From positions 1 to 51,969 of the IMG/VR virus record IMGVR_UViG_3300047469_000408: a stretch of 51,969 bases of DNA; one strand, 5' to 3'. Under the pieces are notes generated by a model. The model saw only the letters and a list, made by a program, of their open reading frames with translations, was not told the origin of the DNA and ran no database searches. Made by a program: the position numbers and the translations under genes. Each line of letters opens with the position of its first letter. The stretch's first letter is position 1. Shown here piece after piece: positions 2,729-51,969 of this stretch. The stretch is from a virus.

Positions 2729-2814
2729 AGCACACTCGAAGAATTGGCTTACTAAATGCCAATCGGCTCAACTTCTACGAACCTTTAACAGGCTCAAAAA
2801 ATATTATTTTGCAC

Positions 2815-3143
2815 CTCGGCTTTGCTGTATTTGAATTCTGGTCGGAAGGCTCGCTCCACCGCAGCCCTTGTGATCAATCGCACGTCGCCCGTTGAATAGA
2901 GCAATTCCACCAGGGCTCCATTGGCGTATTTGGCTTCCTCCGGATTGGACATGCCGTTACGGATAGAAACGCGGATTTCCTGCACGAAGACTGCAGCGCC
3001 CGGAGCTTCTCGGCAGCCCGCATCATGTAGGTCGCAACATCCTCCTTAATTGGTGCAATTTCGGTGAGACGATTGCTGAATATCCACCCAAGCAATAGAT
3101 CTCTTGCTGGGTGAATCGGGCTCATCAAACTCCAATAGGACGT
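2815..3143 (-). pseudogene. Remnant of a second umuC gene
   Basis: Across this stretch the DNA aligns with the intact umuC (about 546-890 of the window). Recognisable pieces are NRLTEIAPIKEDVATYMMRA, then, one frame over, QEIRVSIRNGMSNPEEAKYA and FRPEFKYSKAEV. A frameshift near 2985 separates the two pieces. Homology ends abruptly at both sides: after KYSKAEV it runs into unrelated AT-rich sequence, and before the LEFDEPD stretch the 5' two-thirds of umuC is missing. It encodes roughly the middle-to-late part of UmuC (little-finger region) and cannot be functional. It is probably a scar of recombination or integration at a resident umuC. Confidence 0.88.
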
Positions 3144-3450
3144 AGCCTTGCTGGGTAGCATGCTCCAATCTGGAACAATCTTATTGGCCATCAAAAAATG
3201 GACTGCTTGCTCAACGGTAAGCTTGGCTATCACTGCTAGGGGAAAATAACGTGCAGACTCAAGAGGAAATTCAACTGGAGCTGGCTCTGGCCGAGGCACT
3301 TAGGAGGAAGCAGTGAGAGCAATGGCTTGCAGAGAACAGCGAGGCCGTTACTACCTACAACGAATACGTGGAAGCCCAGGGCGTTTATAGAGCTTCTGAT
3401 GCATGAGCGAGTTTTGAGAATCCCCAGAAACGACTTTGGAAATGGAACTG

Positions 3451-4765: not shown

Positions 4766-5494
4766 TCAAATCTCGATCAATAAATTCGGATCAAAACCTG
4801 TTTTTTGATTTGGATAGCCTCGTGGATTGGAAACCACGCGGCACCCATTTTTTATGAAGTTCGCTGCGACGTGCGTATGCCCGTAAACCCAAAGATCGGC
4901 CTTTCCCAACAGTTCTGGCCAATCATTGGCATAGGCGGCAATCAGGTCTTCAGGAAGCTCGTCACCCACATGATCCAAGGTTGGTGCGTGGTGCGTGACT
5001 ACGACTGTTTTGCCGTTGAAAGGCTTTTCTAACTCTTGAATCAGCCAGGAATGCGCGGCCCTTGATTTAGCTATCAGGTCATCCGGGTTCAACCGTCGAA
5101 AACTTTCATTCGCTCTGATCACGGCGAAGTCATTCATGCATTCCCACGCAGCGCGTTTTGCCGCAACGGCATTCCCAGTTGATGAGTAATCTGTCCACGC
5201 GGTTGTGACCAAAAACCGGGTTTGATCCAGGATCAAGGCTTCGTTTTCGAGTACGTGGACGTGAGGCGCTGCCGCCTCCTTCATCTTGCGCAGCGTGTGA
5301 TCGATGTGGCCACCGTAGTACTCGTGATTGCCACACACGTAGATCACCGGACACTGGAAAACCTCGTTCGCCCATTTCACGCCGCGCGATTTGATATCAA
5401 TGTCGCCAGCGAGAATGACTACATCCGCATCGGTTGGGGTGGGATCGAACGGAGCGAACTCGTTGTGCAGATCTGAAAAAATTCTGAGTTTCAT
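4766..5494 (-). CDS. Calcineurin-like metallophosphoesterase
   Basis: A 242-residue cytosolic phosphoesterase with the full metal-binding motif set in order: FSDLHNE near residue 6, VVILAGDID near 26, VCGNHEYY near 54, VVVTHHAPT near 168 and VYGHTHVAAN near 205. Such enzymes hydrolyse phosphomono- or phosphodiesters with a two-metal centre; the substrate cannot be read from sequence. The gene is intact, starts with ATG, and heads a cluster with the DUF6957-like gene. Confidence 0.88.
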   Translation of the reverse strand: MKLRIFSDLHNEFAPFDPTPTDADVVILAGDIDIKSRGVKWANEVFQCPVIYVCGNHEYYGGHIDHTLRKMKEAAAPHVHVLENEALILDQTRFLVTTAWTDYSSTGNAVAAKRAAWECMNDFAVIRANESFRRLNPDDLIAKSRAAHSWLIQELEKPFNGKTVVVTHHAPTLDHVGDELPEDLIAAYANDWPELLGKADLWVYGHTHVAANFIKNGCRVVSNPRGYPNQKTGFDPNLLIEI

Positions 5495-7474: not shown

Positions 7475-7724
7475 ACTTAGGCTGGGATTTCATTTTGATC
7501 AGCACCGCCTCAGCTGCTCGCAATTCAGCTGTGACGCTAGACCACATCACCACTAGGGTCGATATCTTTTCACGACTTGCATACAGTTCATCTACCAGCT
7601 CTGCGAGCTCGCTTTGCTGACCAGCGAAATCCCTTCTCGGCCGTCCAATACCCCCATCCGACAGCGCCGCCGCGACTGCGGAGCTAAAAATGCACGGATA
7701 AAGAAGCTCATTGATCAGGGCCAT
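7413..7724 (-). CDS. Small hypothetical protein, 103 aa (uncertain)
   Basis: Central part GQQSELAELVDELYASREKI is helical and coiled-coil-like. The 3' end overlaps the integrase remnant by about 60 bases on the opposite strand. No family is recognised. It may be a short regulator or a chance open frame. Confidence 0.3.
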   Translation of the reverse strand: MALINELLYPCIFSSAVAAALSDGGIGRPRRDFAGQQSELAELVDELYASREKISTLVVMWSSVTAELRAAEAVLIKMKSQPKSNDLARSRLCCAQRDLRRSS

Positions 7725-7739
7725 GCCAATTCGAGGTGG

Positions 7740-8061
7740 CGCGACGACTCGGTGTAAGAAGGTAGACGTTTAGCAAGTATTTAAGAGGTTTTCTTGAGGT
7801 ACTAGCCCACCTGCATGTAGTGCCAAGGCGTACTGGGCGAGGATGAAAAAAAGCCGCTTAAGCCTACTAGAGCCGTTGCTGACCCCAACTGCCGAAGATT
7901 CACCCGGCATAATAAATTTGAACTCTATGGCGGTAGACACGTGGCGCAAGGATGGCGTCGTTGTCGTTGGAAGCTGATTTAAAGAGCCGGTCGAAGGTAG
8001 AGTCTAGAGTCAGGGTCTGCTGCCAAGTATTATGAGAAAGTATCCATCAAGATGAACGACC
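7740..8061. other. Intergenic stretch, no gene seen
   Basis: About 320 bases with no convincing gene on either strand. A short plus-strand reading MAVDTWRKDGVVVVGS at 7927-7977 could be the tail of a lost gene, but it is too short to assign. Confidence 0.5.
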
Positions 8062-8325
8062 TCACTGACGCACAGTACGCTTATTTTGCTTCTTATTTTT
8101 GACAGTCTTCTCCTTTCTATTTTTTTCAGACTGTAATGCACGACCGGGATCAATCAACTTCATGATGTCCATAGCGCTGAAGTCATATTGATGAGCCAGG
8201 TTGTCCAACTCACCTAGAAATCGTGCAGCCTTAATAACTTCGGGATCGCGCAGGAGAGGCGCGATGGCCTCATACTCCATGGCAATACGGTTACTGAGTG
8301 CAATGAACTCTTCAACGCTAGTCAT
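8062..8325 (-). CDS. Small basic-tailed protein, possibly MvaT/H-NS oligomerisation-domain-like
   Basis: 87 residues starting MTSVEEFIALSNRIAMEYEA. ATG at 8325 follows GGGGAG at 8 bases and overlaps the stop of the upstream gene by 8 bases, so the two are translationally coupled. The helical core ends QYDFSAMDIMKLIDPGRAL and is followed by a lysine/arginine-rich tail (EKNRKEKTVKNKKQNKRTVR). The spacing of a coiled helix, a YxxSxxDIxxLIDP segment and a basic tail is reminiscent of the N-terminal half of Pseudomonas MvaT. The C-terminal MvaT DNA-binding motif is absent. This similarity is weak and read by eye only. Confidence 0.5.
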   Translation of the reverse strand: MTSVEEFIALSNRIAMEYEAIAPLLRDPEVIKAARFLGELDNLAHQYDFSAMDIMKLIDPGRALQSEKNRKEKTVKNKKQNKRTVRQ

Positions 8326-8779
8326 TGAGCTTCTCCCCGTTGCCATATTGATGCCCTTCAACCTCGGCCGAAGCCACTAACGTATGATCAATATTATCGC
8401 TTAGCCTAGAACTAGCTTCGTAAGCTATACTATTGCCTCTAATGGAACTCACGTGCGCGGTATCTATACTTGACGGCACGGAAGGTGGCGAAGCTTCTAG
8501 ACGCTGAATCATTTCCAGTAATCCTGTATTGGTTCGAGCGTTCAGTCCATCTGCATCACCCCCTGAGCCGCTACCCCCACCCTCATACCTGGCCAGAAGC
8601 AGGTCAAAAACCTGGCTGAGGGTGTACCCGTAATCCTTGGTCAGCGCTTCCAGCTTGAGGTAGAACTCCACATCAAGCTTGTAATCCAAACCTTCTTGCT
8701 GCCTTTTCAGACTACGCAGGGTCTGCTCAAGCTCAAACTCCTTGAGCCGATACTCGACAAGCGTGTGGGTTCTGACCAT
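8318..8779 (-). CDS. Coiled-coil hypothetical protein, 153 aa
   Basis: Residues 1-65 form a long charged helix (LVEYRLKEFELEQTLRSLKR and KLEALTKDYGYTLSQVFDLL). A glycine/serine linker (EGGGSGSGGDADG) follows, then a polar, probably disordered tail. The helical part again recalls MvaT/H-NS dimerisation segments, but no DNA-binding module is seen. It is the first gene of a two-gene unit located between the tniQ fusion and the integrase remnant, so it may be cargo or an accessory factor of the transposon. Confidence 0.55.
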   Translation of the reverse strand: MVRTHTLVEYRLKEFELEQTLRSLKRQQEGLDYKLDVEFYLKLEALTKDYGYTLSQVFDLLLARYEGGGSGSGGDADGLNARTNTGLLEMIQRLEASPPSVPSSIDTAHVSSIRGNSIAYEASSRLSDNIDHTLVASAEVEGHQYGNGEKLND

Positions 8780-8964
8780 TAACTACTCCGGCTTCTCATA
8801 GAAATTCGGGAGGAGGCACACCCAGTATAATAGGCTTCATGGTCGATAAAAACCCTAGTCTACGGAAGGAAATATTCAACAACATCAGTTACTTGGGTGT
8901 TTTAAAGTGTCCATACGACCTTTTGTCGGATTAATAATGCCAACTTGATTGTCAGCCCTTACGC

Positions 8965-8985
8965 ATCATGAACAGCGTTCATGAT
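8965..8985. promoter_or_regulatory. Perfect 9-base-arm palindrome, operator-like
   Basis: ATCATGAAC, spacer AGC, GTTCATGAT: arms match perfectly. It lies in AT-rich intergenic DNA about 185 bases upstream of the 8779 gene and at the head of the putative plus-strand transcript. It fits a dimeric regulator site; the regulator is unknown. Confidence 0.55.
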
Positions 8986-9267
8986 CGAAAACCGCAAAGA
9001 AATCACTGTTTCCTATTTTGATAGTAATTGGAGCGAATGGCCGCAGCGTATGTGGATCAGAGGTTTTCGGTGCTTTCAGTCAATTCATAGATAATATGTC
9101 GTTAAGGAACAAAGATGTCGACGGAGCGCAACGGGGAGCGGAGATTCAGCGCCATTCCCGCCTAACCTTGGCAAAAAAAAGCTCCAATATACGGGCAATT
9201 TATGGCATATGAAATCGACGCACTTCTTCACTTATTGCATTAAATTCAATGACTTGTAACTTTATTG

Positions 9268-9292
9268 AAAGCTCGATAATCGAGCTTTTTTT
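9268..9292 (+). terminator. Rho-independent terminator
   Basis: AAGCTCGAT/ATCGAGCTT stem closed by a one-base loop and followed by a run of T on the plus strand. It would end a plus-strand transcript, although no clear plus-strand gene precedes it. Confidence 0.7.
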
Positions 9293-9652
9293 CGAATTCC
9301 CGTTTCCAGCTTACCGGAAAATTTCTCCCGGGCACCACTGGCAATATTTTTGATAAATCACGTAGCTGGCTTTCTATCATGTATTGACGCAGGCATTCGT
9401 GCCGCAGCAGCCGAATGAGGTCGCTTTAGTCGTTCCGCCTTTCTGCTCGCTCGTTGGCGTAGTCTCATCGCTTCAGGGAGCATTAGGGGAATCGCCTAGG
9501 ATGGGATGGGAGAGGCAATGTTGCGAGTAAACCGCTACTAGCAATAATTAGCTTCAAGCTGGCGTGCTGACCCGAGGAAGAACTTGGACGAGTTTTTTTC
9601 AAAGTTTCATCGGATTTTCCAGCACCTTGGCCTGCGATCTATTTCGACCTTT

Positions 9653-11689
9653 CTAAGAGCGCCCTTTGCACTCCAGAAACCACGCAACAATTATGTAGTC
9701 CAGATCATTTAGCGTAGATCTCGCAAACTCCAAGTAGGCATGTCTCTGGCCTCGATTATAAGCCAGCCCTCCAACTGTTGAAACTTCACTTCGACTTGTC
9801 GGAAATGGAATCGAATAGGGTCTGGTTGTATCTCGTATGAACTCCGCCTCGGAAGTATCAATGACACCAAATCCAACACCTAACATCCAATATGCCACGG
9901 CCACATCACGCGGGCGTGCCGACTCAGGCTTAAGTTGAAGCGATGTCTCTACGGAGCGCTTCTTCGTTACCACCTGTGACTTGCTAAGCCGATAGAAGAA
10001 ATAAGATCGAGCAAACCCTTGCGCCCCGCTTTCACTTGGATCTTGGAGCCAGTAGGACATCAAGAACTCAGCGGCCTTCGCCGAAGGCGAAGTTTTAGCA
10101 GTAAGCCCGAGAAACCAGGTTTGCATCTTGGCTGCCAAAGCCACCAGGCGATCATTGTCCGCTTTGGCCTGGGTCGATGAAGAATGTTGCAACGGAAGCT
10201 GAGTGGTAAGCCTGGAGACAGGGCTTCCCGCGTACTCAGCGAAAGCTTTCCACGCCTTGTTCAGAATGGTGAAGGTCGAGGTGGCCAGTCGCTCGAGGAG
10301 GACGGGAGTATTGTGCCGCAGGCAAACAATCAGCCGAGGTTGCCGCCAATTCAAACGCAAGGCCGGAGCAAGATCGGCTGCCACATCAACCTTGAAGCAC
10401 TCCGGGCAGTAGTTCAGCGCATTGGGGTAAGGAGTCATGCCGGCCCTGAGTTTGCCTGGGCCGCTGTTGATGTTGGATCTTTCAGTGCTACTGGCGTCTG
10501 TGCTGTCGGAGCGGCAGAAGTTAGTGGAGCTACAACCGGGCCAGGGAAGTGTAAATTGTGCGGAGATGTAGAGTCGATCAGCCAAGCTCAATGACTGCAG
10601 CAGTTCAAGGTTATTCCACTGCATGTCAGGGTCGGAGCCACCCTTACTGCAAAGCATAACCAGATTGTCACCCAAGCTGTGCCCGACGCTGTGACTGAGC
10701 TCCATGCTTTGCCTGGCGATCCAAGAAGAGAAGGACTCGTTTTCAATAGCCGGGTGGGAATGTCGGAGATCGGTTTCAGGGAGTTCTGAATGCTGAAGAG
10801 CCAACTTTGGCGTGTCGTCGCGGAGCCTCTGCCCCTCTCCCGTCCTATTGCTGCCTAAGCTACCGCGCCCTATCAGTCCTTCAACTACGCCTGTTACTTT
10901 ACCAGTTGCGTGACTTACTGATTTGTCAAGCGAGTGGGTTTTCGCTGATGCAGACTGACCGTGCTGAAGGGTTGAAAACTCCTCCACATCACAGGCCCAC
11001 ATCGCCGGATGCTGACCGTAGTCCGATGCCTCCACTAACGCACCGTCCATAATCTGATGGATCAACACTCTTACCGCGAGTCCGACCTTTCCACCTGACT
11101 TCTCATGCACGGCATCTACGTCGAGAGCTTCGATACGATCTGGTGGGCACGGCGGCAGCACGCGCAGGGCGACGCTCGTGATGAAGTGACCAAACTTCGA
11201 GTTCGCTGACATGGAATCGAGTCGCACCGTTCTCCACCCCACGGCCGCAGCCTTCAGCTCAAGCTTCAGCCATTCCATCAACTCGGCAACACCGAAGATC
11301 ACGAATCGCGTGGACTGGCAGGCTCGCACCAATTGGATGATTGCGGCGGCGTTGGCAGCCTGTGCCGTATCGTCAGAAGCGTAAATGTCCACGTCATGGA
11401 CAATGAAGCATTCGTAGTTCCGTGCCTCCAACACTGCGAGCTGAAGGGCATTTAGGCCTACTGAGGATGACCCCGACATGTTAATGACGTCCGGCGGAAT
11501 CTGAAGCGCTGCATCCAAATTTGCCTTGAAGCTGCCAGGTTCCAACGTAGAGATCCTGTCCATGGCCAACACTTTACGGCCTGTTCCTCGCAACTCCAGG
11601 GCAAGCTGGATGGCCAGGGCAGTAGCACCACATCCTGGATCACCTGTTACAAGCATTATTTCTCGTGATGCCGGGCGCGAAAAATCCAC
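9653..11689 (-). CDS. tniQ: TniQ protein fused to a degenerate TnsC/TniB-like AAA+ domain
   Basis: 678 residues, much longer than stand-alone TniQ (about 400). Residues 10-215 resemble a TniB/TnsC ATPase: P-loop GDPGCGATAL at 16-25, Walker-B-like CFIVHDVD at 94-101, sensor-like RFVIFGVAELMEWL at 128-141 and a C-terminal lid helix region. The invariant P-loop lysine is alanine (codon GCT) and the Walker B glutamate is absent, so ATP hydrolysis is unlikely. After a polar linker (about 220-315), TniQ features follow: SFSSWIARQS near 320, a zinc knuckle CPEC at 428-431 with CLRH at 456-459, and LRLNWR between them. TniQ proteins guide target choice in Tn5053/Tn7-like transposition. GTG at 11689 has a poor ribosome site; ATG at 11656 is an alternative. 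The prophage end lies 8 bases upstream, separating it from tniAB. Confidence 0.82.
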   Translation of the reverse strand: MDFSRPASREIMLVTGDPGCGATALAIQLALELRGTGRKVLAMDRISTLEPGSFKANLDAALQIPPDVINMSGSSSVGLNALQLAVLEARNYECFIVHDVDIYASDDTAQAANAAAIIQLVRACQSTRFVIFGVAELMEWLKLELKAAAVGWRTVRLDSMSANSKFGHFITSVALRVLPPCPPDRIEALDVDAVHEKSGGKVGLAVRVLIHQIMDGALVEASDYGQHPAMWACDVEEFSTLQHGQSASAKTHSLDKSVSHATGKVTGVVEGLIGRGSLGSNRTGEGQRLRDDTPKLALQHSELPETDLRHSHPAIENESFSSWIARQSMELSHSVGHSLGDNLVMLCSKGGSDPDMQWNNLELLQSLSLADRLYISAQFTLPWPGCSSTNFCRSDSTDASSTERSNINSGPGKLRAGMTPYPNALNYCPECFKVDVAADLAPALRLNWRQPRLIVCLRHNTPVLLERLATSTFTILNKAWKAFAEYAGSPVSRLTTQLPLQHSSSTQAKADNDRLVALAAKMQTWFLGLTAKTSPSAKAAEFLMSYWLQDPSESGAQGFARSYFFYRLSKSQVVTKKRSVETSLQLKPESARPRDVAVAYWMLGVGFGVIDTSEAEFIRDTTRPYSIPFPTSRSEVSTVGGLAYNRGQRHAYLEFARSTLNDLDYIIVAWFLECKGRS

Positions 11690-13334: not shown

Positions 13335-15152
13335 TCAACACCCGACCGACCACCAGGAAATACTCCCAGCAGAAGCGGTGTAGTTGTTTTGCACCCGAAT
13401 AACAGACCTCGAAATTAGCGTGGCACCCGGAGCGAAGGATGCCGTCGAGGACATCGTGGAGAAGTTCATTGCTGCAGATGCCCATAGGCCGGTCGTTGGA
13501 TAGGTTATCGGCAGCGCGACGTCCAGAATGGGGCCTACTGCGCCCAGCGTTGCACTTGCTTGAGGAACGGCGTTTACCACCCCCCACTGGAAAATCAGCC
13601 CCAGCATCCACGAAGGGAAAACCACATACCCGCTCGCCCCGAGTGAAGCTGAAAAACCAAGCCGCATTTTCTTCGGAGTGACGGCGACACTGTCGTCGGT
13701 ACCCGCATTGACCTCCGCTTGGGTGCCGATCCGCAGCAATCCGGCGAGCGCTTCGGCGCCCTGCACAACCTTGGCTCCAATAGCCTGAAAGACCCGCAGC
13801 GGCGTCATGGGCAGCGTGTTATCAGCACCCGCTTCAGCCTGCAGCTGGGTTGGCAGAGCGATCCCATAACCACCCAGCGTGGTCGGTTTACCCGCGGTGA
13901 TCTTGGCCCAATCCAGCGCCGGAATATCCGCTGCCACCAATGGCGCCCCTGCCGTAACACGACCGTACTGGTCGACCGTAACTTTTGGATAAGTGCCGGC
14001 GGCTACGCCGCTGACGGTGAGCGCAACCTGATTGCCCACTACATCAATGCCGGCTCCGGCCGTGACGGTGCCCGCGCCGGCGAACTGCGACACGGTGACA
14101 GCGGTAGCGCCCAGCGTGCCACCCGGATCGATAGTGCAAACCCAGCCGGTGTCGGTGTTCTGCGTACCTTTCTCGACAAAGACGAACGCGGAAACCAGTT
14201 CGTTCCAAGTGTCGGCATCGGTGGTGCGGGACCAGGCGCCGGCTGCGCTGAGGTACATGCCGTTCTGACTCCCGGTGGTTTGGTTCTTGACCAGAATGCG
14301 GGCACCAAAAGGAATTGCGACCCCATCAATGGTTTGGGTGCCGGCCAAGGCAATGTTGGCGGTTGTCGCCACCAGTACCGACGTTTTAACGTCGAGGCCA
14401 CTGATCAGGTTGTCGACGTATTGTTTGGTTGCACCCTGCAGGGCACTGGTCGGGTCGGCTGCCAAGTTGATCTGCGCCCACGACGGTGTCGCACCGTTAT
14501 GGATCGACTGCGGCAACGAAAACACCACATTGCCGGTGGCGCCCGACACAATCACCTGGTTGGCAGTGCCGGCAACCGACAGCACGCCGGTATTGGTCAG
14601 GGTGGGGTTACCTGCGACAGCGTCGCCATTGCTGACGCTCAGCCCTACGCCCACGGCAATGCTGCGCGCGGCTGCGGTACCGGCGCCGGTGTTGGCATAT
14701 AGCCCAGTAGCGACCAGCGCGGCTAGCGCCGTCAGGTCTGCGTCCAGCGGTTGCGCATCGGTGATGCCATACCCAGCCAGAGTGGTCGGATTGGCGCCAG
14801 ACGTCACCAGCCCCTTGGCGTTGATGGTGACCTTGGTAAAAGTGCCTGCCGTGGCACCACTATTTGCCAGGGTGAGAACGCCAGACCCGTTAGCGCTGCC
14901 ATTGAAGGAAATCGACCAAGTTGCATCGCCGGTCACCGAAAGCGTCCGCGCCGTTGCCAGTATGGATGCCTTGCCCGCAAGCGTAGTACCGGCTTCTAGA
15001 GCTTCGAGATTCTGCTTGAGGTAGCTGGTGCGGTTGGCCAACTGCTTGGCCTGCAGGTTATCGATCCCGTCCGGCCCTCCCAATACTGGGTCTGTGGTTT
15101 CCAGCTGGTAGATCCCAGGCGACCAGCTTGCCTCTTCGCTCAAAGCAGCCAT
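13335..15152 (-). CDS. Tail fibre protein
   Basis: 605 residues. The N-terminal part ([20 protein letters not shown] with an [15 protein letters not shown] helix) matches the baseplate-attachment module of Pseudomonas tail fibres. The middle has repeats of the type [20 protein letters not shown] and [12 protein letters not shown]. The C-terminus ends SISWWSVGC, a common receptor-binding tip ending. It determines adsorption to the host surface. It directly abuts gpI and precedes its assembly protein. No invertase or alternate fibre segment is seen nearby. Confidence 0.88.
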
Positions 15153-15733
15153 TAGGCACTTCCTCTATTGTATTGACCGTCTCGAAAGAACAGTCCGTTG
15201 TGGCGGTTGGCTGCGGCCTGGTAGTCCAGGCTGACTAACCGGCAGCGTGCCGGTGCGTGATCGATCAATGCACTGCGCAAGGTGGCGGCCTGATCATTGG
15301 TGATGGGTTGCTGTAGAAATACACGGTACTGAGCCCAGCCTTTGGGATCTCCATGCCAATAGATGCCGTCACGGCGTGTGCGGCCATTGCGTAGCTGACC
15401 GCTGAGCCCTTCAAAAATCTGAATTTCGCCGAAGCCCAATCGCCTAACAACTTCCCGAATCGCCCAAGGATTTCCCTTATATCGATGCAGCTCGGCCGAC
15501 CCCTTGATCAGATTGCGCTTGGCATCTTCCGACTCGGCCAACACCCAAGCAGCCTCATCAAGCAGAGAGAACTGGTCGGCCAGGATCGGCAGCAGTGGCG
15601 CTTTTACCAGGTCAATCAGGTATACCAATATGGCGTTGAGGTCGAGATCAGCCAATGTTTCGTTGAGCAACTCGCAAAGCCTCGCGAAGCGCTCGTCACC
15701 GGCCAAGACTGGGGGAAGCCGTTGCTCAGCCAT
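15152..15733 (-). CDS. Baseplate/tail protein I (P2 gpI-like)
   Basis: 193 residues. [20 protein letters not shown] and [20 protein letters not shown] are characteristic of phage tail protein I, which links the baseplate wedge to the tail fibre. It overlaps gpJ by 8 bases upstream and abuts the fibre gene downstream, matching P2 order J-I-H. Confidence 0.88.
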
Positions 15734-16847
15734 TTACTACCCCAGCATCTAGCAATTGGATCGAGGTGCAATTTGCCCATTCGTTGCCTAGTAGCTCGCG
15801 CAAGGCATCAGGAAATTCCAGCTCCGCCCGGTACACACCATTCACCTGCAGCAAAGCTGTTATCTGCTCCTGGACAAGATCGCGACCGAGTCCAGCACGG
15901 CGTTCAGCTGCATAAGCATCGGCTGCTGCCTGGGCGGCGTTCATCGTGGCGCCACGATCTGCAGTGGCAAAAAAGGTGATACGTGCCTTGATTGCATATG
16001 TCACTTCGCTCGGCATCAAGGCATGTACGGTGTCGCATAGCGGTCGAACCTTTTCTCCACTGACCTGACTAGCAATCCGCAGAAGCAAGTCCTCCGAAGG
16101 CAAGCCGGCGCTGGTGAGTGGGTAAAGCGCGACGTGGCCGTCAGGCTGACCTTCGTTCGGGCCATGCACCGCGACATCTATGATTGACTGATGCACGGCT
16201 AGAGCGTGGTAGCGATAGGCTCCTCGACTGCCGGCGTTGCTGAAGGCTTCAGGCGCCAGAATGATGCGCTCGCGGTAACGGTCGTCATCCTCGTCCTCTG
16301 CACCATCGGCGGTGATGTTGATATTGAATGCCGTAAGACCATCCAATGGAGGATCTCCAATGCTGCTGATCTGTCCGATGGTCCAGCCATTGCCCAGCTC
16401 GCCAGCCGTGAGGCATGTGGCGGTGACACTGATCTGAGTCTGGCCAGCCGCAATGACCGCGTCCTGGTCCGTCACAAAGGTCAGCTTGGCGTCCTGGGTG
16501 CAGACCCGAGTGCCGACCCTGATCAACAAAGATTGTTGCACGGCTACCGGTACGCTGAAACGCAGCATGCAACGTGCTGGAATAGCCAGCAGCCTGGGAG
16601 TGGCAACCAATTCGCCCAGGTAGTCGAGAATCGGCCCGTTGGCCCAGCGGACCAGCAGTTGTTCGCCTGCATTTTGAAGGCTCATCTGCAGTCGGGTTAC
16701 TGCATAGGCGATCTGGTCGATAAACAGCCGCTCGACCTGCGCCGGATACAGGGTCTTACCTGACTTACTCTCATAACGGGCAATCAAATCAGCCTCGGTA
16801 GCGGCTGGGTCGATCTTGACGAATATTGGTTTAGGCAGCTCGCGCAT
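15726..16847 (-). CDS. Baseplate protein J
   Basis: 373 residues of the gpJ/Mu gp47 family, the main baseplate wedge protein. Visible family signatures are the N-terminal RYESKSGKTLYPAQVERLFI, a central DGAEDEDDDRYRERI and AYRYHALAVHQSIIDVAVHG. It overlaps gpW by 17 bases and gpI by 8, so it belongs to one translationally coupled baseplate operon. Confidence 0.92.
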   Translation of the reverse strand: MRELPKPIFVKIDPAATEADLIARYESKSGKTLYPAQVERLFIDQIAYAVTRLQMSLQNAGEQLLVRWANGPILDYLGELVATPRLLAIPARCMLRFSVPVAVQQSLLIRVGTRVCTQDAKLTFVTDQDAVIAAGQTQISVTATCLTAGELGNGWTIGQISSIGDPPLDGLTAFNINITADGAEDEDDDRYRERIILAPEAFSNAGSRGAYRYHALAVHQSIIDVAVHGPNEGQPDGHVALYPLTSAGLPSEDLLLRIASQVSGEKVRPLCDTVHALMPSEVTYAIKARITFFATADRGATMNAAQAAADAYAAERRAGLGRDLVQEQITALLQVNGVYRAELEFPDALRELLGNEWANCTSIQLLDAGVVNG

Positions 16848-17208
16848 AGGGCACCTCGGTCAACTGGTCGATGCCATCGGCCACACGCCACTGCACACGT
16901 AAGGTGATGTCCGAGTTTTCAATGAGCACCTGCATCTGGACAACCGACACACGGGTTTCCCAACGGCGAATCGAATCGACCGCTTCGCGCACCAAGTGCG
17001 GGGTTACACGATTAGCGGGCCAGTCGATGTACCTATGAATGTCGCTGCCAAACTCCGGCCGGTGGGCATCACTGCCCTTGGGGGTGGTCAGGATGATGCG
17101 GATGGCCTGGTCGATATCGCGCAAACCCTCGACCACCTCACCGGATGTACCGAGGGCGGGTTGCCAGTGGGCGGCGGTGATACTGGTGTAGGGAGTGGGC
17201 GTCGTCAT
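16831..17208 (-). CDS. Baseplate protein W (GP25 lysozyme-fold family)
   Basis: 125 residues. ILTTPKGSDAHRPEFGSDIH is the GP25/gpW signature (TxxGxRxxxPxFGxxL). It is a structural wedge protein rather than a lysozyme in this family. ATG at 17208 is preferred to GTG at 17214; neither has a good ribosome site. The repeated late element at 17241-17262 lies 33 bases upstream. Confidence 0.88.
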   Translation of the reverse strand: MTTPTPYTSITAAHWQPALGTSGEVVEGLRDIDQAIRIILTTPKGSDAHRPEFGSDIHRYIDWPANRVTPHLVREAVDSIRRWETRVSVVQMQVLIENSDITLRVQWRVADGIDQLTEVPYARAA

Positions 17209-17240
17209 GCACACATAGTGGGCATACGAGCTACGCTAGG

Positions 17241-17262
17241 CTTTTAATCGAGTTTAAAGAGA
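17241..17262 (-). promoter_or_regulatory. Late-element copy 1 (candidate late promoter/activator site) before gpW
   Basis: Contains TTTTAATCGAGTTTAAAGAG as read on the plus strand; on the minus strand it precedes gpW by 33 bases. The outer CTTTTAA/TTTAAAG halves form an imperfect dyad. It also sits 20 bases upstream of the plus-strand gene at 17283. Confidence 0.65.
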
Positions 17263-17282
17263 CGGCTGACGAGGAGGAGTTT

Positions 17283-17594
17283 ATGCGGTGGATCGAAATT
17301 GAAAGCGTTCCAGGAAAGAAAATGCCCCAGTGGCAGCGCTCAGCTGGGCTGGGTGATGACGGAACCGTGTATGCCCCGGCAGCCATGGCCGGTAATGAAC
17401 AAGCGGTCATGCTCTGCGCCGGTTATGACGGCATTGCATTGCTGAGCTACCTCAACCATGTATTTGTTTCTACCGATTGGCTATCGAAGGAATACCCTCA
17501 CCTGGAGGGGCTGTGTGATTCGATAGTGAGAAAAGTGAATCGAATCGCCGACGAAGCCGCGAACTCCGAGGCGCAGGCTGAGCCAGATGATTAA
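17283..17594 (+). CDS. Plus-strand hypothetical protein in the baseplate operon (probable moron), 103 aa
   Basis: Starts MRWIEIESVPGKKMPQWQRS with a strong AGGAGG site 5 bases upstream. It is acidic and soluble, with a central FVSTDWLSKEYPHLEGLCDS. It runs against the flanking baseplate genes and its stop overlaps the end of gpV by 4 bases. This suggests an added gene expressed independently of the late operon, perhaps from the prophage. The family is not recognised. Confidence 0.72.
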   Translation: MRWIEIESVPGKKMPQWQRSAGLGDDGTVYAPAAMAGNEQAVMLCAGYDGIALLSYLNHVFVSTDWLSKEYPHLEGLCDSIVRKVNRIADEAANSEAQAEPDD

Positions 17595-43003: not shown

Positions 43004-44779
43004 ATGAACCCGGTACAGCTCCAGCAACTGACCCAGATCGCCCAACGGGCAGCCAATGCTCCGCACGGTCAACGTACTGCCGTGTATCAGGCGGGCGCGG
43101 CAGAGCTGGGTGTTTCTATCCAAACACTGCAGCGCAAGCTCAAGGAGCTTAGCGTGGCCAAGCCGCGCAAACGTCGCAGCGATGCGGGCAACAGCGCCTT
43201 ACCCCTGGATGAAGCTCGACTGATATCGGCTGTGCTGCTGGAGTCAATCCGGGCCAATAACAAACAACTATCCACCATCGAACGAGCTGTCGAGCGCCTA
43301 CGCAGTAACAACCTGATTATGGCTGGCCGGGTAGATGAAGGGACGGGCTTGTTCCGTCCATTGACAAGCGGCTCGATCAGCCGAGCCCTGCAGAGTTACA
43401 AACTGCACCCGGAACAGCTGCTGCATGATGCCCCAGCTGTGTCACTGGCCAGTAAACACCCCAATCATGTTTGGCAGGTGGACGCTTCGATCTCGACGCA
43501 GTTCTACCTCGCCGATGATGGGGCACGGGATATGAACAAAGCCGAGTTCTATGACGGCAAGCCCGCCAACCTAAAGAAGATCGAGCGCCAGCGCTTGTGG
43601 CGTTATGTGGTCACCGATCACACCAGCGGGACGTTGTACCTGGAGTACGTGCTGGGCGCGGAGTCCGCAGAAAACCTGTGCAATGTGCTGATCAACGCGA
43701 TGCAGAAGCGCCACGAATCTGACCCGTTTCACGGCGTGCCCTGGATGCTAATGACCGACCCCGGTGCGGCCATGACCAGCGGCATTTTTCGCAATTTGTG
43801 CCGCGCCATGTCCATCGATCTGATTATCAACCAGGTCGGCAATGCACGGGCCAAGGGCCAGGTCGAACAAGCACACAACATCGTCGAGCGCGAGTTTGAG
43901 AGTGCCTTGAAATTCCAGGCGGCCAACAGTCTGGAGCAGATCAACACGTGGGCTGGCCAGTGGATGCGTTACTTCAATGCGACCTCCATTCATACCCGCA
44001 CTCTGCGTACCCGTTTCGGCGTGTGGCAACTGATCAAGCAGGAACAGTTGCGCTTGGCGCCGAGTATTGAGGTCTGTCGCGAGTTGGCGGTCAGCACACC
44101 GGAATATCGCAAGGTCAGCAACCTGCTACGGGTTTCGTTCCGAGGATCGCAGTTCGATGTCAGCTCGGTACCCGATGTGATGGTCGGCGAGAAACTGCTG
44201 ATCACTCGCAACTGCTGGCGCGACCAGGACGCCGCCATCGCGGTACTGGTGGGCGAAGACGGTCGTGAGCACTACCACGTTATCGAGCGGATCAAGATGA
44301 ATGAGTTTGGCTTTGCCGAAACCTCGGCAACGATTGGCGAACAGTACAAGCGCCATGCCGAAACACCTGCTCAGGTTTCGCGCAAGATCCTGGAACAACT
44401 CGCCACCGGTACCTCCAGTGAGTCTGATTCCAAAGTTGCCCGCAAGGCTAAAACGGTGCCATTCGGTGGACTGATTGATCCGCACAAACATGTCAACGAC
44501 ACCGTGCTACCGGCTTACCTGCCGCGACGGGGTACCTCACTGAACGTCAATGCAACGACCATGGAGCATGCGCTGCTGAGCCACGTCGAGTCCGCGAAAT
44601 TGCTGCGTCCACGGATGGCCAATCTTTGGTCAGCGGAGACGTTCAGCTGGCTGCAGCAGCAATACCCAGAAGGAGTTCCGCAAGAGCAGCTCGAAGCCAT
44701 CGAGGCCGAGCTGAAACGACCTATCGAGGTCATGCGCAAACCGCTCAGCCTGGTACGGGCTGCAGCAGGAGGTGAGTGA
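43004..44779 (+). CDS. MuA-like DDE transposase
   Basis: 591 residues. N-terminal HTH GVSIQTLQRKLKELSVAKPR at about 36-55; rve-type catalytic core with D160 in HVWQVDAS, D252 in MLMTDPGAAM and E288 in AKGQVEQAHNIVE (D to E spacing of 35); then the Mu-transposase C-terminal beta-barrel domain (SSVPDVMVGEKLLITRNCWR). It binds the phage ends and performs strand transfer for integration and replicative transposition. All three catalytic acids are present. It overlaps the B gene by one base (TGATG). Confidence 0.94.
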   Translation: MNPVQLQQLTQIAQRAANAPHGQRTAVYQAGAAELGVSIQTLQRKLKELSVAKPRKRRSDAGNSALPLDEARLISAVLLESIRANNKQLSTIERAVERLRSNNLIMAGRVDEGTGLFRPLTSGSISRALQSYKLHPEQLLHDAPAVSLASKHPNHVWQVDASISTQFYLADDGARDMNKAEFYDGKPANLKKIERQRLWRYVVTDHTSGTLYLEYVLGAESAENLCNVLINAMQKRHESDPFHGVPWMLMTDPGAAMTSGIFRNLCRAMSIDLIINQVGNARAKGQVEQAHNIVEREFESALKFQAANSLEQINTWAGQWMRYFNATSIHTRTLRTRFGVWQLIKQEQLRLAPSIEVCRELAVSTPEYRKVSNLLRVSFRGSQFDVSSVPDVMVGEKLLITRNCWRDQDAAIAVLVGEDGREHYHVIERIKMNEFGFAETSATIGEQYKRHAETPAQVSRKILEQLATGTSSESDSKVARKAKTVPFGGLIDPHKHVNDTVLPAYLPRRGTSLNVNATTMEHALLSHVESAKLLRPRMANLWSAETFSWLQQQYPEGVPQEQLEAIEAELKRPIEVMRKPLSLVRAAAGGE

Positions 44780-45960
44780 TGTTGAAACTGAAGCAAGTAC
44801 TACAAGGCGTTGGCCGACCGCAATCGGCACTAGCCGAGTCGCTGAAGCTGAGCGAGGCCGCCATTGCCCAGTTGCTGAACCACGGTCAATGGCCACGCAG
44901 TTTGGACAGCGCCGATCTGCAGGGGCGCATTCGTGTGTTCCTGACCGAATCCGGCGCCAACGATGCCGATATCGCCAACGCCTTTGAAGAAGTGGACCTG
45001 TCGTGCGCCAACACGACAGGTCCGGCCCTTAAAAAAGAGCCGTCCGGGGAGGACGAACCTATGTTACTGCCAAAACAAACGCTGTTGCCATCTACCCGCA
45101 AGGCCTTCGGCATGTTCCGCGATGCCTTTGATGAGCTGCAATCTGCTCAGGATATGTGGGTCAGCCCCGATATCCGCTACATCCGCGAGGTGATGTATCA
45201 GACCGCGCGCCATGGTGGATTCCTGGCTGTTGAAGGTGAGTCCGGTGCCGGTAAAAGCACATTGCGCCGAGACCTGGTGAACCGCATTGCGGAGAACAAT
45301 GACCCGGTGATCATCATCGAGCCCTATGTGTTGGCGTCCGAAGACAACGATGTAAAGGGTAAATCGCTCAAAAGCACACACATCGCTGAGTCGATGATGG
45401 CCGCTGTTGCCCCCCTGGCAAAGCCCAAGAGCAGCCCTGAGGCGCGCTTCGCCCAACTGCACAAGGCACTGAAAGAATCCCACGCCGCCGGCTATCGCCA
45501 TTGTCTGGTGATTGAGGAGGCGCACAGCTTGCCGATCCCGACACTCAAACACCTCAAGCGCATCCTGGAGCTGGAGGTCGGCTTCACCAAACTGGTCAGC
45601 ATCATCATGATCGGTCAGCCCGAGTTGGGCGTGAAGCTCAGTGAACGCAATGCTGACGTGCGTGAAGTCGTGCAGCGTTGCGAGCGGGTCACGCTGGCGT
45701 CCATCGACGGCAAGCTTCTGGAAGATTTCCTGACGTTCCGTTTCGGCCGGGTAGGTAAACCACTGGCCGAGGTAATTGATGCGAGCGGTATACAGGCCAT
45801 TGCTGCGCGGCTTTCCCAGCCCAGCCGCCGAGGTGGTCGCGACGAAACCGTCTCGCTGTTGTATCCGCTGGCCATCGGTAACTTGATGATCGCGGCAATG
45901 AACTTGGCGACCCAACTGGGTGTGCCGGTAGTCACCGCTGACGTAGTAAAGGGGGTGTGA
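44779..45960 (+). CDS. MuB-like AAA+ ATPase (ExeA-like target-selection protein)
   Basis: 393 residues. Cro-like HTH at 15-45 (SALAESLKLSEAAIAQLLNH), then ATPase: Walker A GESGAGKST at 153-161, Walker B HCLVIEEAH at 241-249, sensor IIMIGQPEL at 275-283. The ATPase resembles ExeA more than classical MuB, as described for BcepMu. It binds target DNA and activates the transposase, and probably gives target immunity. AGGAGGTG precedes ATG 44779. Confidence 0.92.
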   Translation: MLKLKQVLQGVGRPQSALAESLKLSEAAIAQLLNHGQWPRSLDSADLQGRIRVFLTESGANDADIANAFEEVDLSCANTTGPALKKEPSGEDEPMLLPKQTLLPSTRKAFGMFRDAFDELQSAQDMWVSPDIRYIREVMYQTARHGGFLAVEGESGAGKSTLRRDLVNRIAENNDPVIIIEPYVLASEDNDVKGKSLKSTHIAESMMAAVAPLAKPKSSPEARFAQLHKALKESHAAGYRHCLVIEEAHSLPIPTLKHLKRILELEVGFTKLVSIIMIGQPELGVKLSERNADVREVVQRCERVTLASIDGKLLEDFLTFRFGRVGKPLAEVIDASGIQAIAARLSQPSRRGGRDETVSLLYPLAIGNLMIAAMNLATQLGVPVVTADVVKGV

Positions 45961-48759: not shown

Positions 48760-48764
48760 CCTAA
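48760..48764. repeat. Right copy of 5-bp target-site duplication CCTAA
   Basis: Matches 11692-11696 exactly and directly follows the right terminal repeat. Confidence 0.65.
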
Positions 48765-48917
48765 ACATTCTCGCCGCGCTACGCCTGTCCCACCCTCGCC
48801 TGCCCCCTCCGTTGAGGGATTACCTTGGGGCGCCATGAACTTATAACACTCGGTCAGGGCGTCTTCGTTACCAGAGGCTCTAGACCAAAACTCTTGAGGT
48901 TCATGGCTGATCAACAC
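48760..48917 (-). other. Small open frame cut by the prophage (uncertain gene)
   Basis: On the minus strand a GTG at 48917, preceded by AGGAG with a 4-base gap, opens VLISHEPQEFWSRASGNEDA and runs into the prophage edge after 52 codons. Joining it to the left flank with one CCTAA copy continues the frame to a TGA inside the first 60 bases of the tniQ-fusion gene (63 codons in all). It may be a short coupled leader gene, or the missing N-terminus of the fusion if one frame slip is assumed. Codon support is weak. The rest, 48918-49081, is intergenic behind tniB with nothing clear. Confidence 0.35.
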
Positions 48918-49081
48918 CGGGCTCCTGTCGCGCTTTCGCTAGGTCTGGAAATAGCAATTTTCGTAGGCCGTGGTACAGAGGCTTTGGGATGTCACCAAGA
49001 GCTAGTCCGAAATGCCAAGTTCGAATGCTGCAAATCCATATCGGTAGCAAACCGAACTGCCTGCTAATGCGATTGACGTAC

Positions 49082-50047
49082 CTAGCCTTCGGACGCTGTT
49101 TCCGGAATCACCATTGGCCGAGTTTCCAGCCTTTTGAGTGCCTCGTTGACACCGTGCATACTCGACCATGCCTTTAAGATGCTATCCGCGTTGATGTATT
49201 CCTGCCCGCTCTCGATCTCCATCCGACATGCCTCCCTTAAAATCTCCACGACTGCTCGGCGCGACCGGTACTCCACCTGGACACCATTTTCAGTGGTTGT
49301 CGTACGCGCGCAGTCATATAGGTTTTTAAGGAGCTTTGCGTTCACGATCGACTTCTGACGCAGAGGCATGTAACACAGATAGCCGTTCACGAATGACTCC
49401 CCTTCGAAATCGTTTTCCCATGCGGTTAACGTTGCAGTCCGAAGGCTGAACCGAGTCATTAGTGTTGCATCACCTTTGAATACGTCGACAAAACCATCCG
49501 GGGTTCCGCTCAAGATCACGCTCATCTGCCAATCAGGCCCAGCAAGTCCCTTGATCGTGCCATGCTCGCGATTGACCCGCTTCAGCGTTAGGGTCTGGTT
49601 AAGCAGCGGGATTTCATCAATGAACACAGCACGAACATTATTTTCCTTGATCAACTGCTGAGCCAGGGCAACATCACGGTATGACAGCGTAAGCGGCCGC
49701 TTGTAAAATCTCTTACCCACTTCCGCTAGAAACAGCTTCATGATGTTCGGGTTTGCAATGTTCTGTACAAGATCGATATAGATCACCTTGCCGGGCCATT
49801 TTGTGTCTGGCTTGAAGCTTTGCGTTTGCCAGCGCTGACCTAGTAACGATTTGCCTAGGCCTGGATGCGCGATCAAGGACATCCCGGGGTTAGAGGTGCA
49901 CCTAGGTAACGCTACTAGACGCTGTGCACTCTCCTCAGCTGACATTGCCCTGGGGTGCATGAGGAAGAGCTCCCGCATGCAAGCGAGGGCCCGCTCTTCG
50001 CGTGGCAGTTCTAATATCTCTTGGGTCTTCTCACTGAGATGGCTCAT
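49082..50047 (-). CDS. tniB: TniB-like AAA+ transposition ATPase
   Basis: 321 residues. Walker A HPGLGKSLLG near 61-70, Walker B RAVFIDEIPLL near 139-149 and a sensor segment VILSGTPDGF near 177-186 are all intact. It ends RPMVIPETASEG. It belongs to the TniB/TnsC regulators that bind target DNA and link the transposase with TniQ. ATG at 50047 overlaps the tniA stop (ATGA). It contrasts with the tniQ fusion, whose ATPase motifs are lost, so this is likely the only active ATPase of the system. Confidence 0.9.
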   Translation of the reverse strand: MSHLSEKTQEILELPREERALACMRELFLMHPRAMSAEESAQRLVALPRCTSNPGMSLIAHPGLGKSLLGQRWQTQSFKPDTKWPGKVIYIDLVQNIANPNIMKLFLAEVGKRFYKRPLTLSYRDVALAQQLIKENNVRAVFIDEIPLLNQTLTLKRVNREHGTIKGLAGPDWQMSVILSGTPDGFVDVFKGDATLMTRFSLRTATLTAWENDFEGESFVNGYLCYMPLRQKSIVNAKLLKNLYDCARTTTTENGVQVEYRSRRAVVEILREACRMEIESGQEYINADSILKAWSSMHGVNEALKRLETRPMVIPETASEG

Positions 50048-51969
50048 AGGTCATCGTCTCCCATCATCGGTGGCGCTGGGCCACATTGTTGCGATGTAGA
50101 ACATCCATTCGATGTTCCGGCGGATTTTCCAGCCTTTGCATTCATCGCGGTAGCCGGCGATGTAGACTCGATAGATCCTGTCATCAACCCTGGTGATAAT
50201 GAATTCAACACCCGCTCTTGAAGTGCACGAGACTCTTCAAGCCTTCTTTTCTGCCCATCTGTAATAAGGGTGCTCATCAGCTTCCGCTGCTCATTGACAT
50301 ACACTAACCCTAAGATTGTTAGGTGGCCTTTCCTTTGGCCACTCTTCCTCCTAATATCCCACTCCCACATTGTTCTGGGAATATTATCAGCATCCTTATT
50401 GATCAATATTACCTCCTCCCATTTACCCTTATAATCCACCCAGGCGTGATGTATATTATTGTGGTCGACTTTAATTCTGACTGAAGTTCCTACCTGGTTT
50501 TTATAGGGGCCCGGATCGTAAAGTAGTTCAATCGTTAAGATCCCCTCACCCCTCACTTCAACTTTCCGCTCATGAAGAATATCTATCCAGAAATGCTTAG
50601 GGTCAGGCAATGTTCTCGGGACTTTTATAATGCCTTCATGTATCCCGAAGCTTTTCAACCAGCGTTGATTCGGGGTAAGATGATCAACCCCAGGAAGTTC
50701 ATGCCAGATGCAAATTTGAGTAATGATTAGTATGAATAGATCAGTAATTTCATACTTGGCCATCGACTGAGGGTCTTCGCCACGTGCGATCTTTCGATTT
50801 GATGCGATAGCCCCTTTTAATCTTTGCATGAATAGCGGATTTATCTTTCCAAACCCACGCTCAACTTTACCGCCACTTTGAGGGCGCATTCTCCTCTGTG
50901 GAATTATACCGTGCTTGTCAAGGCCAGCCAGAACGGTTTTTGCGTTAAGGTCGCCACCTCCATCAACTCGGTAGTTTTCTCCCGCTCCATACTGCATCCA
51001 AACATATTTTCCTGACAGCCCAAATTCTTCCATCAATGCGTCTTTGGGCTGTACTGCCATCAGCATGGCGTCAGCCAGCGTGTTTCGCGAAGGAAACCGA
51101 AACGTGAGAGCGAAACCCAGGAATGAACTAGTGTTGTCATCCACAATTATCGTTAAATTTGGTCGCCCTAGCCACTTTCCGGTTTTAGGATCTACCGCAT
51201 GGCAATCGAGTGGACTATTGTCAGCATGAATCAACTGCAGGGCATGGGTAGTGATAGTTCCGTGTCCGAACGTATCAAACTTATCACGAGCAGCCTTTGG
51301 GCCTTTATCGCTCGCTAGAGCTTCGCGATCAGAAATATTTTGTTTGTACCGACGCCTGATAGTCGAGTCAGACGGGGTTGTCTCACCATCGACGAGGCAC
51401 CGCGCCTGAGTGCCATTTATCATGGCCTGTACGGTACCACCTGGCCCTAAAGGGTCTTCCTGGCCAGCCGTGACCATGATGTCTTCAACATGTTGGCTAA
51501 ACCGGGTTTCGCCTTTGCGCCGCCCCGGTGTGCCAGGTACTAGGCTTTCCCAGTTGGGCCATTTACGATATCTAGCCAACAGCTCATTCAGAACTGTTAA
51601 CTTGATTCCCAATTTTTCCATGGCCCATTCTTTGTCGACCTTGGTTATTTTCGTGGATTCATGCAACGATTTGATAACACGCTCCCGCTCCCTGGCTGTA
51701 AGAATCTGTTCGGGGGTATACCGGGACACCGGTTTAGGCTCTTCAGCCTCTAGGCATTGCTGCTCGTTGTCGGCAAGAACCTCATCCCTAATACGTTCGG
51801 TAATATCTGAGGAAATTTTTAGGAGACTATCCCGATGCGCTGTAGCGGGCGGCTCTAGCCTCCCCGAAGACTGGATGACATAGCTGTTATTCTCAGCGTC
51901 AAAGTCGAGCACGGTGAAAATTCCATCACGCTCTTTAAGAAACACGCTCTCGCCGACTACGTAGTCCAT
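50044..51969 (-). CDS. tniA: TniA/TnsB-like DDE transposase
   Basis: 641 residues to an ATG at the window edge; the gene could begin further out. Features: N-terminal beta-rich part, an HTH-bearing region (TPEQILTARERERVIKSLHE, then SDSTIRRRYKQNISDREALA), and an rve core with D250 in QLIHADNSPLD, D336 in NYRVDGGGDL and E370 in SGGKVERGFGK (33 residues between). A C-terminal beta-barrel follows with VEVRGEGILTIELLYDPGPY. It would cut and join the transposon ends. Its DNA is richer in A and T than the prophage, suggesting a different origin. A TnsA-like endonuclease gene is not in the window. Confidence 0.92.
   Translation of the reverse strand: MDYVVGESVFLKERDGIFTVLDFDAENNSYVIQSSGRLEPPATAHRDSLLKISSDITERIRDEVLADNEQQCLEAEEPKPVSRYTPEQILTARERERVIKSLHESTKITKVDKEWAMEKLGIKLTVLNELLARYRKWPNWESLVPGTPGRRKGETRFSQHVEDIMVTAGQEDPLGPGGTVQAMINGTQARCLVDGETTPSDSTIRRRYKQNISDREALASDKGPKAARDKFDTFGHGTITTHALQLIHADNSPLDCHAVDPKTGKWLGRPNLTIIVDDNTSSFLGFALTFRFPSRNTLADAMLMAVQPKDALMEEFGLSGKYVWMQYGAGENYRVDGGGDLNAKTVLAGLDKHGIIPQRRMRPQSGGKVERGFGKINPLFMQRLKGAIASNRKIARGEDPQSMAKYEITDLFILIITQICIWHELPGVDHLTPNQRWLKSFGIHEGIIKVPRTLPDPKHFWIDILHERKVEVRGEGILTIELLYDPGPYKNQVGTSVRIKVDHNNIHHAWVDYKGKWEEVILINKDADNIPRTMWEWDIRRKSGQRKGHLTILGLVYVNEQRKLMSTLITDGQKRRLEESRALQERVLNSLSPGLMTGSIESTSPATAMNAKAGKSAGTSNGCSTSQQCGPAPPMMGDDDL

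Follow-up and report, generated by a model that had tools for sequence, protein, structure and literature searches.

A lysine-less AAA+ domain encoded beside, or fused to, TniQ in a family of Tn7/Tn5053-like elements of Pseudomonas

The window, by which we mean the whole 51,969-nucleotide stretch of viral DNA, an IMG/VR record, that was analysed, carries on its minus strand an open reading frame (11689..9653) whose C-terminal half is TniQ and whose N-terminal half is an AAA+ domain with the motifs GDPGCGAT and HDVD. A first-pass annotation had described this frame as a TniQ fused to a TnsC-like domain; the frame, its motifs and its TniQ domain are all present as described, but comparison with an uninterrupted copy in Pseudomonas sp. 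PD9R (locus L002) reveals that it is not an intact gene, having been split in two by a Mu-like prophage. The features to which we refer are as follows.

8062 to 8361, minus strand: orf99, a small conserved gene
8318 to 8779, minus strand: orf153, a small conserved gene downstream of tniQ
9653 to 11665, minus strand: 3' part of the native gene as delimited by contiguity in L002, carrying the bulk of the dead AAA+ domain plus the disordered linker and TniQ (residues ~49-718)
10307 to 10744, minus strand: TniQ core (PF06527), residues 356-501 of the native protein, E=2.7e-8
11387 to 11398, minus strand: Walker B-like HDVD in the sequence, Asp kept, catalytic Glu absent
11621 to 11644, minus strand: degenerate Walker A GDPGCGAT in the sequence, Ala for Lys
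11660 to 11665: target-site duplication CGAGAA flanking the prophage, copy 1
11666 to 48767: Mu-like prophage, 37,102 bp, ends TG...CA, absent from L002, with its own MuA and MuB
43004 to 44779, plus strand: MuA-like gene of the prophage
44776 to 45960, plus strand: MuB-like gene of the prophage
48768 to 48773: target-site duplication CGAGAA flanking the prophage, copy 2
48768 to 48917, minus strand: displaced 5' end of the dead-AAA+/TniQ gene, residues 1-50 (MLISHEPQEFWSRASGNEDALTEC...), GTG start
49082 to 50047, minus strand: tniB, encoding the canonical AAA+ regulator, GLGKS and DE both intact (PF05621, E=4.3e-9)
50044 to 51969, minus strand: tniA, DDE transposase (phrog_310 transposase, E=5.7e-23), running to the window edge

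The uninterrupted copy was found in a genome scan; it matches the window frame at 100% identity across residues 7-678 and encodes a native protein of 718 aa. Window segments 48768-50382 and 7565-11665 are contiguous in L002, at 99.98% identity, and overlap there in the 6-bp duplication CGAGAA. Since window 11666-48767 is not in L002, the GTG at 11689 is phage DNA and the native 5' end lies elsewhere: the first 8 codons of the window frame are phage-end DNA, and this GTG was rejected as the true start. The first 50 native codons are found at window 48917-48768, equal to L002 9863-10012, with a ribosome-binding-like AGGAG upstream of their GTG. Prophage ends near 48760/11703, guessed from short repeats, were also discarded, the true junctions being those given by L002. 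Judged by this comparison, the window copy of the gene is inactivated by the prophage. The 37.1-kb prophage itself looks complete, with early (transposition) genes on the plus strand and structural genes on the minus strand.

The TniQ assignment of the C-terminal half is confirmed. The window frame as a whole matches PF06527 with E=2.4e-8, the score of 35.0-35.1 bits exceeds the gathering score of 27, and the fused and split relatives also pass; together with the invariance of C468, C471, C496 and H499 in 10 fused proteins, this bears out the zinc-knuckle TniQ domain recognized at the outset. Upstream in the same operon are the DDE transposase, for which the invariant acidic residues D250, D336 and E370 form a candidate triad, and the ATPase TniB, in whose alignments the P-loop lysine and the Walker B Asp are invariant, mostly with Glu next to the latter. 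On the other side of tniQ, orf153 has homologues in the same downstream position in L096, L100 and L101 and farther away in L095, and by this recurrence is probably part of the element core. The two small genes 3' of tniQ (window 8062-8779) recur in distant elements, and the L096 homologue of orf99, at 2801-3181, has an MvaT DNA-binding domain; judging from that domain, a silencer of the H-NS/MvaT type may be encoded by the element itself.

Left ends, starting with TGT upstream of tniA, could be defined by alignment in five elements, and an inverted match to the left end located no right ends. The left-end flanks of six elements have no gene in common (amidohydrolase, DUF4260, AsnC regulator, methyltransferase, helicase and porin), and with flanks that differ and no tRNA gene found, a fixed insertion site or tRNA target was rejected. 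The left flanks of L097 (before 3129) and L098 (before 3199) have in common a stretch of ∼28 bp, CAGAAGCG.ATTTGT.GAATC, offset by about 21 bp relative to the insertion point; in these two related elements the stretch may be a target signal. No TnsA endonuclease of the kind found in Tn7 proper was recognized: Pfam assigns nothing informative to the ORF of 173-240 aa that precedes tniA at some loci. In three of the separate-gene loci, tniA is instead preceded by a thymidylate-kinase-like gene (L095 715-1323, L096 14849-15514 and L102 13972-14610). Elsewhere in the window, a metallophosphoesterase (4766-5494) is 55-64% identical in L096, L097, L099 and L100, unusually conserved for cargo, and positions 310-2038 hold a rulAB/umuDC-like pair (IMS polymerase and S24 peptidase); in Pseudomonas, rulB is a known hotspot at which other elements integrate (PMC4542609). 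L002 has at 14107-17513 an insertion of ∼3.4 kb with an 8-bp duplication, TGAAAAGA, which is absent from the window (cf. 7565-7572).

Searches across 399 genomes of Pseudomonas and 398 of Pseudomonadaceae added diverse relatives; nine of these were examined for gene order, and L105/L130 and L106/L131 supplied two further fusions. The family members examined number 16 (L002-L006, L094-L102, L105 and L106), of which L102 is a weak, long-branched one. Operon order is tniA, tniB, dead AAA+ domain, tniQ, the dead domain always standing directly between tniB and tniQ. The fusion to TniQ proposed from the window copy recurs in several lineages and is found in 12 loci (L002-L006, L097-L101, L105, L106), but in the four remaining relatives (L094, L095, L096, L102) the domain is a separate gene that overlaps or abuts its neighbors. 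In ordinary Pseudomonas relatives, TniB is followed directly by TniQ with nothing between; their TniB proteins were chosen by the GK[ST] pattern, and because of this selection their lysine is not counted as evidence. The plasmid and viral collections searched yielded essentially no relatives, and sparse surveys of other Gammaproteobacteria and Pseudomonadota gave, among the matches inspected, only generic or ExeA/DamX-like P-loop proteins; readable matches from one such survey beyond Pseudomonas mostly keep the P-loop lysine. At the level of sequence, the association of a dead domain with TniQ holds and generalizes beyond the window copy.

The Walker A lysine is absent from the dead domain in 16/16 members and present in the adjoining TniB in 16/16, where GK[ST] is always found. 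In the five close uninterrupted homologues (L002-L006; 50-100% identity to the window frame) the GCGAT with its Lys-to-Ala change is invariant (5/5). Family-wide, the lysine position holds Ala in these five and in L100, L101 and L105, Leu in L094 and L106, Met in L095 and L097-L099, Ser in L096 and Ile in L102, within the variants (G/A)xPGCGAT/GDSGCGAT, APAGTGAT, GALGSGLS, GERGSGLS, GASGSGMT, GLSGAGSS, GDAGCGMS, GEAGAGAS and GPAGAGIT; lysine never occurs. Close homologues that keep it, which would have marked the window gene as a decayed copy, were thus looked for and none was found. The P-loop retains two glycines and the following Ser/Thr, and of the Walker B motif the Asp alone is invariant, Glu not being conserved. 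A deviant Walker A of the MinD/ParA type was considered for the domain and rejected, there being no replacement lysine near the P-loop. The arginine finger of TniB, R199, is invariant, and the column aligned with it in the dead domain has no conserved Arg, in a part of the profile alignment that is weak. The early reading that the ATPase residues have been lost therefore stands, and on these motifs the domain very probably has no ATPase activity.

Pairwise comparison gives the dead domain dN/dS values of 0.22-0.36, a range shared by TniQ and TniB, and by this measure the domain is under purifying selection. In a joint tree, a branch with support of 94/96, just short of firm, separates the 14 dead domains from TniB, which is consistent with one old loss of the lysine that was retained, followed by substitution at that position. 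The TniB tree joins the window lineage with three separate-gene loci (support 99/97) and places two more fused lineages (L097-L099 and L100-L101) outside that group, a topology consistent with, though no proof of, more than one fusion to TniQ.

AlphaFold models the N-terminal domain as an initiator-type AAA+ fold (pLDDT 85, pTM 0.84), and a Foldseek search with it ranks the initiator-type proteins ORC, Hda, Cdc6 and DnaA as high by E-value as TnsC, which has the highest TM-scores among the best PDB matches (0.63 for 8fcu, I-B CAST TnsC; 0.61 for 9g0f, PmcTnsC; 0.60 for 9gmz). An unrelated P-loop fold, which would have spoken against a TnsC-like domain, is not what these searches return. Profile comparison by hhalign aligns the dead domain with TniB at E=4e-15 over 231 columns, and VchTnsC is a full-domain match in a PDB profile search (E=4.6e-4); with TnsC among the best structural matches, the claimed resemblance to TnsC/TniB is borne out. 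Pfam gives no PF05621 (TniB) match in the dead domain, only AAA_22, above cut-off in L095 alone, and the N- and C-terminal extensions of TniB are missing, a difference of possible importance for assembly. Sequence does not establish descent from TniB, because ExeA/DamX-like AAA profiles match equally (112.8, over about 209 columns, against 113.0 for TniB), and the domain may never have been a TnsC subunit; "TnsC-like" is accordingly a safe label for fold and context and makes no claim about ancestry. At full length, the model has two ordered halves, AAA (1-260) and TniQ (346-715), on either side of a disordered segment of about 80 residues (262-345), and with such a linker it implies no fixed arrangement of dead domain and TniQ.

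From this anatomy we infer, at roughly even odds (about 0.5), that the dead subunit binds to TniB and, at the target, bridges it to TniQ. The family of Pseudomonas Tn7/Tn5053-like elements encodes, besides TniA and a canonical TniB, a second, catalytically dead AAA+ domain, immediately before TniQ or fused to it via a long disordered linker. This domain would form a TnsC-like end subunit, packed on TniB at the TniQ-contacting face. Because ATP could not be hydrolysed at the joint so formed, the disassembly of TniB that TniA stimulates would halt at this point, and a patch of TniB would stay in place at the TniQ-marked target, with the tether keeping the parts together. The fuller claim, that the domain is a new core component of Tn7-like elements, a hydrolysis-dead AAA+ seed subunit, encoded alone or as a fusion with TniQ, that fixes where TniA-driven disassembly stops by hard-wiring at the target that end of the TniB assembly which resists hydrolysis, we put forward tentatively, as somewhat doubtful.

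The strongest rival to this seed/cap reading is that the domain is a target recognizer of the initiator or ExeA-like AAA kind, binding DNA or a host factor and not part of the TniB ring, with TniQ linking it to TniB, as for TnsF in Tn6022. The level ranking of initiator-type folds with TnsC by Foldseek E-value and the equal match to ExeA/DamX-like profiles both suit such a role; TnsF is a precedent for an inactivated enzyme reused as a target selector beside TniQ (PMC10293859), and the separate-gene versions parallel loci with TniQ plus a selector. A TnsC-like role is supported instead by the domain's place immediately behind tniB and by its TM-scores, which are higher to TnsC, and the want of a common gene in the left flanks of the six elements is a mild argument against a dedicated site-recognition module. 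We regard this alternative as unlikely. A domain that joins TniB oligomers as a brake, limiting TniB assembly or giving target immunity rather than promoting insertion, is equally compatible with the anatomy; a dominant-negative subunit is a plausible use for a dead AAA+ domain, and purifying selection fits any function. Recurrent covalent fusion to TniQ, however, places the domain at the target complex, which a free inhibitor would not need, and we consider a brake improbable.

Still less probable is a domain that binds nucleotide without the lysine and acts as a fixed-state sensor. Despite loss of the lysine, the P-loop has kept two glycines and the subsequent Ser/Thr, and the Walker B motif its Asp, as a sensor would lead one to expect, but neither a replacement lysine near the P-loop nor a conserved Arg at the finger position accompanies them. 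The prophage that does interrupt the window gene might point to one decayed copy, or to a resemblance that arose by chance; with 16 members lacking the lysine, dN/dS values indicating purifying selection and uninterrupted copies elsewhere, this explanation has next to no credibility and was rejected.

The elements resemble Tn5053/Tn402 and Tn7-like TniA-TniB-TniQ transposons in their DDE transposase, lysine-containing TniB, TniQ, gene order and TGT left end, and differ in having, between TniB and TniQ, an additional AAA+ domain that lacks the lysine. In the N-terminal fold, and in the pairing of a TnsC-like AAA+ protein with TniQ/TnsD, they are like the TnsC of CAST and Tn7 systems bound to TniQ/TnsD (PDB 8fcu, 8glu); those TnsC proteins, however, are active ATPases and separate polypeptides, whereas here an extra dead domain is present, often tethered. 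ExeA/GspA/DamX-like AAA_22 proteins share the profile similarity described above, domain start included, but have an intact P-loop lysine and are larger proteins without TniQ. In Tn6022, according to Faure et al. (2023, PMC10293859), TniQ is likewise paired with, and once fused to, an inactivated enzyme in target selection; that enzyme, TnsF, is a dead tyrosine recombinase, whereas here a dead AAA+ domain stands at the N terminus of TniQ. The main published survey of Tn7 target selectors describes, in the portion available, extra tnsC genes in the vicinity of tnsB as well as a fusion of TniQ with TnsF, and in that portion no TniQ-AAA+ fusion was found; the open-access papers searched contained nothing relevant on such a fusion or on a dead TnsC. 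The Tn7-like element of the Pbo island of P. syringae (PMC8473136) was set aside, since the accessible part of its description gives a TnsA-like gene and no sign of the dead-AAA+/TniQ arrangement.

The finding bears on how TniQ marks targets and on where TnsC/TniB disassembly stops, in Tn7-like and CRISPR-associated transposons alike. With a naturally dead AAA+ domain coupled to TniQ, the seed/cap idea would be open to direct test, since the forms encoded separately and as fusions are ready-made reagents for it, and the design could suggest a route to more precise insertion tools. Together these data suggest, in Tn7-related elements of Pseudomonas, a mode of holding the transposition machinery at its target that the open-access papers searched do not describe.
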